DNA of 43,397 nucleotides from Fimbriiglobus sp. (GTDB taxonomy: Bacteria; Planctomycetota; Planctomycetia; Gemmatales; Gemmataceae), in contig JANXWE010000115.1 of assembly GCA_025351325.1 (NCBI GenBank), forward strand, positions 1-43,397, in the 5' to 3' direction. The notes under the pieces were generated by a model. That model did not search any database. It saw only the letters and a list, made by a program, of their open reading frames with translations, and was not told the DNA's origin. Each line of letters opens with the position of its first letter. Position 1 is the stretch's first letter. A program made the position numbers and the translations under genes. Shown piece by piece: positions 1 through 43,397 of this stretch.

Positions 1-1370
1 GCCACGCACGCCACGAGGCCGGCGAAGCGGTAGTAGTAGACCATGAATATTAGTACAGCGGCGAACGATGCGAAGACCGAGATCAGTCCCTTGCGGATGG
101 TCGATTCACCGAGAGTCGCCCCGACGGTGTTCTCACTGACCGGGTCGGGCTTGAGTTCCGCATTCAAGTTGCCCGACCGCAGGATGTTGACGAGTTGGTT
201 GACGGCTTTTTGGGTGAAGCTGCCACCGCTGATGATTCCTGAGCCGTTAAGGACAGTACTCAGCATTGGCGCAGAAACGATTTTGTCGTCCATAATGACT
301 GCAAGACTGCGAACATTGCCATCAGTCGGCTTGTTTCGCTCGGTCAGATCGCGAAACATTTTCGACCCGGTGGGCGTTTCAAAAGTGAATCCGACAGCGG
401 GTTTGGTCTCTTTGTCCTGCTCAGATCTGGCCGAAATGCGGACATCTCCGATGACGCGGACGTTGTCCGCTGTCGAAACGCGTGTCAACAAAAAGTATTC
501 GACATCCTTGTCCGAATCTTCCTTTGTTGTTGCAATCTTGGAATAGACTCTGCTGTAAAATATGTAGGTCACCATTTTACCAGGGTGATCACCACCAGCG
601 GGGCTGACGTGTAGATAAGTCTTGTTTCGTGTCTTTTTCAACTCGGGGTAGAGCCAAATAGGGTCGCCCCCCAGACTGGACTTTTTTGGAGGGCTTTTTT
701 CAGCAAACTCGTTGCTCAGCCCCAACCCGATTCTTTCTTCTTTACCCAACTCCACCCACTCGTAGCGGGCATCAACTTCATCCCCCGCCGCTTTGACCTT
801 GTACGTGGATGGTGGCGAAAGTGGTGTTTTGCCGGATTTTGCACGCTCCATCAGTGACGTGTCTCCAGCCGGAGCACTATCGATCATCCGTCTTGCTTCT
901 TCAATTCCTTCACGATCGTCACCCATGTTCGCCAGAATGCGGAATTCGAGCACGCCGGTCTGTTTGACTTGGTTGCGTACATCCTGCACAAATTCTTCGT
1001 TCGGCGCTTCTTTATTGCCCCCGGTGCTACCCGCGAACGGCAAGATGATTTCGACGCGGCTGTTGCCGATGGGCCGCACGACGACGTTCTTCAGGTCGGT
1101 CGGGTCGATCCGTTTCTTGAGCTTCTCGGCGAGTTGTTTGATGTCGTCGCCGGTGAGTTCGCGGGCGCCTTCGCCGCGCGCTATCGATTTGTCGTCCATC
1201 CGCTCGCGGTCGACTTCGTAGATGAGGATGGTTCCGCCGGCCAGGTCGATCCCCCGGCGGAAGCCGATCTGTCCGTTCGACTCCTTCCAGAAGGCGTAGC
1301 CCGCGAAAATGGCGGCGATGATCGTCGGCACGAGGCAGAGAATCAGGCGAGTCGTGAATTTCGGTCGCAT
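1..1370 (-). CDS. secD: Protein translocase subunit SecD, N-terminal part (runs off the window)
   Basis: SecD is the membrane partner of SecYEG that uses the proton gradient to help pull secreted proteins across the inner membrane. The frame is open from the ATG at 1370 to the window edge (456 codons, no stop), so the C-terminal membrane bundle and any fused SecF lie outside. The visible part has a first membrane segment at about residues 8-27, then GIDLAGGTILIYEV, which corresponds to the SecD 'GLDLxGG' signature, then a large periplasmic region with AVIMDDKIVSAPMLSTV and the turn ISGGSFTQKAVNQLVNILRSG, both typical of SecD. A second membrane segment starts near residue 430. The insert between about residues 150 and 300 is long and charged. 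It lies 58 bp downstream of yajC and is probably co-transcribed with it and tgt. Confidence 0.95.
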   Translation of the reverse strand, partial: MRPKFTTRLILCLVPTIIAAIFAGYAFWKESNGQIGFRRGIDLAGGTILIYEVDRERMDDKSIARGEGARELTGDDIKQLAEKLKKRIDPTDLKNVVVRPIGNSRVEIILPFAGSTGGNKEAPNEEFVQDVRNQVKQTGVLEFRILANMGDDREGIEEARRMIDSAPAGDTSLMERAKSGKTPLSPPSTYKVKAAGDEVDARYEWVELGKEERIGLGLSNEFAEKSPPKKSSLGGDPIWLYPELKKTRNKTYLHVSPAGGDHPGKMVTYIFYSRVYSKIATTKEDSDKDVEYFLLTRVSTADNVRVIGDVRISARSEQDKETKPAVGFTFETPTGSKMFRDLTERNKPTDGNVRSLAVIMDDKIVSAPMLSTVLNGSGIISGGSFTQKAVNQLVNILRSGNLNAELKPDPVSENTVGATLGESTIRKGLISVFASFAAVLIFMVYYYRFAGLVACV

Positions 1371-1782: not shown

Positions 1783-1869
1783 GGAATTTCCTGTGCTGGC
1801 ACTGGGGAGTAAGCAATCGTCAAAATCGGAACGCGCATCTTAGTTGTGTGCTTCCCGCGCGGCAAGGTA

Positions 1870-1955
1870 GTTAGCCGCGAGGCGTCCGGCTAACTCTAAC
1901 TCCACCCGCGGCCCGCACGCGCTCGGCGGACGCCTCGCGGCTAACTCCACCCGCG
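1870..1955. repeat. Composite palindromic repeat at the 3' end of tgt
   Basis: A 19-bp sequence at 1870-1888 (starts GTTAGCCGCG) is repeated as a perfect inverted copy at 1927-1945. A 15-bp direct repeat, CTAACTCCACCCGCG, is found at 1896-1910 and again at 1941-1955. The second direct copy overlaps the last codons and stop codon of tgt, so the tgt C-terminus (RGWS and stop) is encoded by repeat sequence. It could act as a terminator or REP-like element between tgt and yajC. Confidence 0.75.
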
Positions 1956-42368: not shown

Positions 42369-43397
42369 ATGACGACTACCACTTTACCACTGGCCCGCCG
42401 ACGCGAAGAACTCGCGATCCGCACGCATTGCCCTTACTGTGCGTTCCAGTGTGGTATCCGCATGGCCGACACTGCGGGTGAGAATGTCCCACAAATTCAG
42501 GGTGATCCGCACTTCCCCGTCAACAACGGCCAGCTCTGCATCAAGGGTTGGACGAGCTTCTCGCTGCTAACCCACCCGCAACGCTTGCTGACTCCACTGG
42601 TACGCGATTCCCGTACCGACGACTTCCGCGAAGCCAGTTGGGACGAAGCCCTCGACCGGATCGCCGATGCGATGCTCCGCACGAAATCGGAACATGGAGC
42701 CGACGCCAATGGCGTGTTCGGCTCCGGGGCACTGACGAACGAGAAAGCCTACCTGCTGGGCAAGTTTGCCCGGCTCGCACTCGGCACCGCGAACATCGAT
42801 TACAACGGTCGTTGGTGCATGTCGAGTGCTGCGGGCGGTGGCAATCGAGCTTTCGGAATCGACCGTGGTATGCCTTTCCCGGTGGCCGATATTGCCCAAT
42901 CGGAATTGGTTGTTCTCATCGGTTCGAACTGTGCTGACACGTTGCCACCGATCATGCAGTGGTTCGAGAAGCAGAAGGCCAACGGTGGTCGACTCGTGGT
43001 CATCGATCCGCGTCGCACCGAGACAGCCCGCAAAGCCGATTTGCACCTGCCGATTACACCGGGTTCCGATCTCGCGCTCGCCAACGGGTTGCTCTACTTG
43101 GCCATCGAAGAAGGGTTCTTAAACCGCGAGTTCATCGCCGCTCGCACCAATGGATTTGAAGCGGTGCGGGCCACCGTGCTGGGCTACCACCCGGCTGCGG
43201 TGGAGCGCATCACCGGTGTCGGCGAGCCGCAGATGCGTCAACTCCTGCGCTGGATCGGCACGGCCAAGTCGTGCATGTTGCTGTCCGGGCGTGGGCCGGA
43301 GCAACACAGCAAAGGCGTCGATACCGTCCACGCGTGGATCAACCTGGCGCTGGCCCTTGGGTTGCCCGGAAAACAATTCAGCGGCTGGGCCACACTC
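42369..43397 (+). CDS. Assimilatory nitrate reductase, molybdopterin catalytic subunit (N-terminal part)
   Basis: The reading frame runs from the ATG at 42369 to the window edge (343 codons visible). It is a molybdopterin oxidoreductase of the NasA/NasC/NarB type. The [4Fe-4S] ligands are C21, C24 and C28 (THCPYCAFQCGI) and C57 (NNGQLCIKGW). It continues GVFGSGALTNEKAYLLGKFARLALGT, DYNGRWCMSSAAGGGNRAFG (with Cys in the molybdenum-binding position) and LVVLIGSNCADTLPPIMQWF, ending inside the cofactor domain (LLSGRGPEQHSKGVDTV). It reduces nitrate to nitrite, which NirB/NirD then reduce. Close gene spacing puts it in the cobA-nirB-nirD operon. The C-terminal half is outside the window. Confidence 0.93.
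   Translation, partial: MTTTTLPLARRREELAIRTHCPYCAFQCGIRMADTAGENVPQIQGDPHFPVNNGQLCIKGWTSFSLLTHPQRLLTPLVRDSRTDDFREASWDEALDRIADAMLRTKSEHGADANGVFGSGALTNEKAYLLGKFARLALGTANIDYNGRWCMSSAAGGGNRAFGIDRGMPFPVADIAQSELVVLIGSNCADTLPPIMQWFEKQKANGGRLVVIDPRRTETARKADLHLPITPGSDLALANGLLYLAIEEGFLNREFIAARTNGFEAVRATVLGYHPAAVERITGVGEPQMRQLLRWIGTAKSCMLLSGRGPEQHSKGVDTVHAWINLALALGLPGKQFSGWATL

Follow-up and report, generated by a model that had tools for sequence, protein, structure and literature searches.

A putative REP-like element with a TTAG tag at the 3′ end of tgt in a Fimbriiglobus genome

Concerning short palindromic repeats that end bacterial genes, the closest described systems are the repetitive extragenic palindromes (REPs) tagged GTAG, whose termini, according to the accessible portion of PMC3733652, often provide the stop codon TAG to flanking ORFs; the same portion names Planctomycetes among the phyla with such repeats. 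In the text available from PMC3116915, two inverted REP units with a short spacer constitute a REPIN, which is taken as the replicative unit. Atypical hairpins associated with class 3 TnpA are placed around Y1 genes, principally in Planctomycetes, Acidobacteria and Proteobacteria, in the accessible sections of PMC6006769, while PMC12306157, citing earlier work in the portion seen here, states that in Escherichia coli ribosomes are stalled by REPs lying no more than 15 nt from a stop codon. A literature search on repetitive extragenic palindromic repeats in Gemmata found none in the text accessible to it, and the papers on palindromic repeats in Gemmataceae that it returned were off topic as judged by title and the opening of the abstract.

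In the current study, the end of tgt in Fimbriiglobus sp. (assembly GCA_025351325.1, contig JANXWE010000115.1) was analysed within a window of 43,397 nucleotides, this being the whole stretch of DNA considered. We regard it as highly probable that the palindrome found there represents one copy of a non-autonomous element of the REP/REPIN type, which inserted within the last codons of the gene.

The end of tgt and a dispersed palindromic family

The gap between tgt and yajC (Table 1) measures 158 bp and contains the element, which also overlaps the last bases of tgt, such that the TAG at 1943–1941 within the full unit is the tgt stop codon. Read on the minus strand from 1955 to 1941, the sequence CGC GGG TGG AGT TAG (R, G, W, S, stop) lies in the frame of tgt. 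A sequence-only reading of this DNA had described a 19-bp perfect inverted repeat and a 15-bp direct repeat at this position; the former is real, albeit 20 bp long, with arms that are 100% complementary and separated by 38 nt, while the latter (CTAACTCCACCCGCG, in two exact copies) stands as described. The inverted repeat is beyond chance, since 100 dinucleotide shuffles of the window, with a gap of up to 150 allowed, gave no perfect inverted repeat longer than 14 bp (mean of the longest, 11.6). The 17-mer GGCTAACTCCACCCGCG, with up to two mismatches, matched the two sites in the window and one two-mismatch site elsewhere, which rules out the direct repeat as part of a dispersed unit.

Table 1. 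Coordinates of genes and repeats at the tgt–yajC–secD locus (positions in the window)
Feature	Position	Strand	Details
tgt, queuine tRNA-ribosyltransferase, 364 aa	1941–3035	−	PF01702, E 9e-157, residues 10–361
yajC, next gene 3′ of tgt, same direction	1429–1782	−	PF02699, E 1.5e-18
secD-like gene, 3′ of yajC, leaves the window	3–1370	−	PF22599 (SecDF_P1_head), E 3.5e-14
Full REP-like unit, TTAGCCGCGAGGCGTCCGCCGAGCGCG	1918–1944	−	0 mismatches to the degenerate family pattern
Second REP-like unit, inverted, truncated	1871–1888	+	first 18 of 27 bases
Arm 1 of the 20-bp perfect inverted repeat	1869–1888		
Arm 2 of the 20-bp perfect inverted repeat	1927–1946		
Direct repeat, copy 2	1941–1955	−	last four sense codons and stop of tgt (RGWS, stop)
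Direct repeat, copy 1	1896–1910	−	repeats the end of tgt with its stop, 45 bp 3′ of the original

Within the window the 13-mer core is unremarkable (three matches with up to two mismatches vs 1.6 expected), and the family to which it belongs is visible at genome scale only. The source assembly comprises 5.09 Mb in 382 contigs and is 96% complete. When compared with its own genome, the tgt-end region produced 12 matches including itself, and the seven others that were read all carry the 27-mer TTAGCCGCGAGACGTCCGTCGAGCGCG. For the core TTAGCCGCGAGRCGTCCGYCGAGCGCG, 25 genome matches of the 27-mer with up to three mismatches were obtained, against none for a reversed-pattern control, a count which is probably a lower bound since several copies lie within about 70 bases of the ends of contigs C137, C155, C205, C247, C303 and C315, where the repeat probably broke the assembly. 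The 11-base head was found in exact form 39 times in the genome and six times in the control. The family thus displays a characteristic of REPs, namely a palindromic unit of 20–40 bp in many dispersed copies, and the proposal that a REP-like element lies at the end of tgt, with a small part of it kept as coding sequence, is borne out, and the repeat is not unique in the genome.

The unit consists of TTAG followed by CCGCG-A-GACG-TC-CGTC-GAG-CGCG(G), which correspond to a tag, a basal stem, an interruption and an inner stem. In the predicted DNA fold of the consensus, the basal stem pairs directly after TTAG, weakly (z −0.87); the unit in the window, which has T in place of the following G, is predicted to form no family hairpin when folded alone (z 0.98). 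Relative to the other 24 matches, the copy in the window has changed A to G and T to C on opposite sides of the inner stem such that pairing is kept, and this compensatory change may be taken as weak evidence for pairing, being one case. Where canonical REPs carry a GTAG or GTGG tag, this family has TTAG at the foot of the predicted hairpin, and one of the 25 matches reads GTAG (L036, three mismatches).

Pairs of inverted units with tags outward and a short spacer, the arrangement of a REPIN, occur on contigs C92, C130, C221, C362, C142, C157 and C370. The pair at tgt is REPIN-like, but one of its units is truncated: the distal unit is without its last third, and its place is taken, as read on the minus strand, by a repetition of the 15 bases that end tgt, followed by AGTTAGC. 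At two further loci (L023 on C315 and L082 on C104) a second head, TTAGCCGCGAG, was observed 24–25 bases upstream and pointing the same way, which looks like the landing of one copy next to another.

Among 58 relatives, 55 have no match to the family and three have one match each (with two or three mismatches); it is absent from all three same-genus genomes searched. An exact scan with the degenerate 27-mer returned no match in a broader collection of genome contigs, from which very near records may be omitted. The family has so far been seen in this species only.

Contribution of the unit to tgt and to other genes

A tgt match was present in 57 of the 58 relatives, and the best 29 of these 57 were compared at the C-terminus, with columns counted ungapped from a conserved HN; L056, which ends before its stop, and L060, which diverges before the relevant column, are included in the 29, while 80 further tgt loci from the broader contig collection, at most 63% identical, were left out of all counts. 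In 19 of these 29 relatives a W occupies the same column as that of RGWS, a feature which is not universal given that two of the three same-genus species carry F or L there (followed by 12 or 6 residues). Exactly four residues follow this column in 21 of the 29, while the tgt product of the window has one, S. The closest relative (G002, 88% identical) ends in GWASVE followed by TGA and has GCT TCG at the homologous place, without TTAG.

From the W column and the comparison of tail lengths we conclude that CGC GGG TGG AG looks to be tgt's own sequence, with R-G-W native, and that the share of the element is probably the last T of AGT together with the stop TAG, at a cost of about three residues. 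The second copy of the direct repeat does, as had been noted from the letters, encode RGWS and the stop; the attribution of all four residues to the element fails, because W is shared by most of the relatives compared, although by one of the three same-genus species only. The refuting outcome in which orthologs without the element end in the same residues is half realised, the W column being shared and the tail and stop being different.

The ends of genes at other copies of the family were also considered. The 47 copies examined comprised the 39 exact heads and eight of the 25 27-mer matches with an inexact head; two (L093 and L097) were dropped as chance head matches inside long frames, leaving 45. 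A frame was called coding-like if it had at least 80 codons and coding-like codon use at a cut-off of 0.12, and borderline calls are soft because the codon scores were trained on 33 ORFs of the window, chosen greedily by length, several of which score near or below zero and are probably not genes. By this test 13 of the 45 copies stop a coding-like frame with their TAG at +1, two of them doubtful (L002 and the second copy of L029), and in 10 more a coding-like stop starts 3–9 nt upstream of TTAG, so that 23 of the 45, classed on the one strand scored, have such a stop in one or other position. At L035 a frame ends inside the unit at +19, and at L029 one reads through the unit to a stop at +53. 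As a control, the window contains 31 TTAG on both strands, four of which lie in the element region (one being the tgt stop); none of the other 27, a small sample, passes as a coding-like stop, the nearest miss being the frame at 42566–43118 with a score of 0.11 against the cut-off of 0.12.

The genes ended by the TAG of the element include mtdB-, carB-, cobW-, esterase-, NHL-, MoxR- and KBL-like genes. Pfam domains support mtdB, cobW, esterase, NHL and KBL (the last as an aminotransferase), while carB, MoxR and the finer gene names are putative assignments from the sequence. Nine element-ended genes were compared with the three same-genus genomes, which provided a match in 24 of 27 comparisons, the ends being read by eye. 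The protein of the present genome is shorter at the C-terminus in 13 of the 24 (by 1–8 residues), ends at the same place in eight (NHL in all three genomes, carB and KBL in two each, MoxR in one) and ends later in three (cobW, MoxR and DUF4261, each against G003).

These ends bear upon an alternative whereby the element inserts beside a TTAG that already exists, the stop being in place beforehand and nothing being added to the protein. IS200/IS605 elements insert next to a fixed tetranucleotide, and the NHL-repeat gene, whose end point is shared with all three sisters, one of them reading TTTTAG there, would suit such a history, as would the shared ends of carB and KBL. At tgt, in contrast, one residue stands where 21 of 29 relatives have a four-residue tail, and G002 offers no TTAG to insert beside; the 13 earlier ends and the failure of any other TTAG in the window to pass as a gene stop, small as that sample is, likewise argue against it. 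We therefore judge this alternative improbable as a general account, and on the ortholog comparisons favour insertion at gene ends with tolerated small losses, while insertion beside an existing stop may hold for some genes.

Proposed origin and possible function

On the preferred reading of insertion within the last codons of tgt, the unit is a TTAG tag joined directly to an imperfect hairpin, and it occurs alone or doubled, the two units then being inverted with their tags facing outward. As the tag begins T-TAG, an in-frame insertion would end the upstream gene at once, and a landing at a gene end would therefore cost few residues and survive selection. Insertion at tgt would have exchanged the usual four-residue tail after the W column for one residue and TAG. 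At the junction, a subsequent local duplication or a switch of template would then have placed a second copy of the final 15 bp of tgt in the middle of the pair, with truncation of the distal unit; we infer this step from the direct repeat, which contains native tgt codons and for which duplication of the border between gene and element is the best reading.

By analogy with known REPs, the TTAG family would be moved by a Y1 (RAYT-like) transposase. The genome contains three Y1_Tnp genes (L071 on C329, L072 on C113 and L073 on C139), for which the NCBIfam names are IS200-like or REP-associated, one match alone reaching its cut-off. Within about 1.5 kb of these three genes no TTAG palindrome (up to eight mismatches) was found; given an assembly that is 96% complete in 382 contigs, absence of a RAYT is not proven thereby. 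Beside 20 Y1 genes of the three sister genomes, a TTAG palindrome was likewise lacking except for one five-mismatch match in L223, and the palindrome GAGCCGGGAGCGTGAGCGACCGGAG of the sister genome G003 (up to five mismatches) was not found there either.

A 42-bp perfect inverted repeat adjoins the Y1 gene of L071, and each of the three Y1 genes lies near distinct palindromes of its own, e.g. GTAGCCAGGGGTGGAGC..., GTAGCCCAGGGCAACGCCCTGGG and AGGCGAGCCGACTGGCG..., which indicates that further REP-like families probably coexist in this genome.

The palindrome might instead be a transcription terminator hairpin of tgt that overlaps the stop by chance, and its position directly 3′ of the gene and the strong predicted RNA fold of the minus strand from 1965 to 1860 (−58.4 kcal/mol, z −3.47, with one of 200 shuffles as good) accord with such a role. 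This we consider highly improbable, since the G+C-rich hairpin followed by a U run that typifies intrinsic terminators was found at none of the positions from 1400 to 2200, yajC and secD follow in the same direction, and the unit belongs to a dispersed family; the terminator role that the sequence-only reading had entertained is consequently not upheld. If the hairpin has any effect, it would most likely, by analogy with what is reported for E. coli REPs, be in slowing ribosomes at the stop at which it starts or in protecting the mRNA 3′ end within a tgt–yajC–secD transcript. A search of 1500–2300 for known Rfam RNAs gave a single match below threshold, mir-2057, which scored 22.3 bits where the gathering score is 100 (E 0.089) and was taken as chance.

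It is also highly improbable that the 15-bp direct repeat is a target-site duplication left by a MITE-like insertion, for although its two exact copies, spaced by 45 bp, lie on either side of the full unit's hairpin, the repeat includes the TTAG of the element itself, one copy lies inside the inverted pair, and inspection by eye of two other pairs (L008 and L016) showed no comparable flanking repeat. Y1 enzymes are not known to make target-site duplications, which counts further against it.

Palindromes in sister species and comparison with known systems

In the same-genus genome G003 the tgt frame ends GGC GAG CCG GGA GCG TGA within a 25-bp inverted repeat, GAGCCGGGAGCGTGAGCGACCGGAG, so that a different palindrome supplies EPGA and TGA to the gene. 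This sequence has 372 matches in G003 and at most 49 in each of the other 36 genomes searched. In a sample of 40 G003 stretches, drawn from the first-listed exact matches, the internal TGA serves as a coding-like stop in eight of 77 copies, a figure which is soft because five of the eight codon scores are 0.25 or less, the scores having been trained on ORFs of the window; the tail at these eight stops is EPGA (EAGA in one). The palindrome GAGCCGGGAGCGTGAGCGACCGGAG of G003 (seen at L044) often stands in inverted pairs and seems to lend several frames a common EPGA tail with TGA.

Judged by these gene ends, two different palindrome families appear to have ended tgt in two species of one genus. 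A more tentative proposition, which we put forward while holding it to be rather unlikely, is that REPIN families land repeatedly at the end of tgt, different ones having independently taken over the stop codon in different species of a single genus. If true, such lineages would steadily gain new protein C-termini through takeover of stops by REPs, and the takeover might be retained for the hairpin that it puts at the stop, by which tgt would be tuned relative to the downstream yajC–secD.

In the third sister, G001, the hairpin after tgt is weakly repetitive (11 matches with up to three mismatches, one of them exact, against none in the control), and a search for it in G003 gave eight matches against five in the control. 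Inverted repeats that overlap or directly follow the stop were also observed at the cobW-like gene of G001 (L124, ACACAGTGACCGGGTGAG...CTCACCCGGTCACTGTGT) and at carB of G003 (L112, AAGTAGTAGGCACACTCCG...). Many tgt loci outside the genus share GAT(A/G) directly after the stop and a T-rich stretch a few bases on (e.g. L048, L052, L054, L057, L058, L059, L061, L063 and L066–L070), which might represent a signal conserved ahead of yajC, one that this genus does not show.

Based on these comparisons, orthologs reveal what a REP adds to a gene end, which at tgt would be one base and a stop rather than the codons that look repeated. Besides a TTAG-tagged family, the present analysis adds an estimate of gene-ending copies (13 of 45, two of them dubious), and together with the sister species it offers a natural experiment in which two different REP families seem to have done the same to one gene. 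Gene callers and comparisons of C-termini should expect such tails.

Set beside the described systems, as far as the accessible text of each source permits, the TTAG family resembles the GTAG REPs of PMC3733652 in being a short, dispersed, tagged palindrome that occurs as singles and inverted dimers and lies, in many copies, near gene 3′ ends, and differs in its tag, its short interrupted stem and the lack of a match in 55 of 58 relatives. With the REPINs of PMC3116915 it shares inverted pairs of units with a short spacer, whereas no RAYT was found beside the family and the pair at tgt is damaged. The class 3 TnpA palindromes of PMC6006769 have CnGA at the foot in contrast to TTAG, and no linked gene was found for the family described here. 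The translation-linked REPs of E. coli (PMC12306157) are alike in their position directly at or after the stop codon, while in the TTAG family, known here from its sequence, the stop lies inside the element. The provision of stops by REPs is already published for those tagged GTAG, and the TTAG-tagged family is a new addition to elements of this kind.
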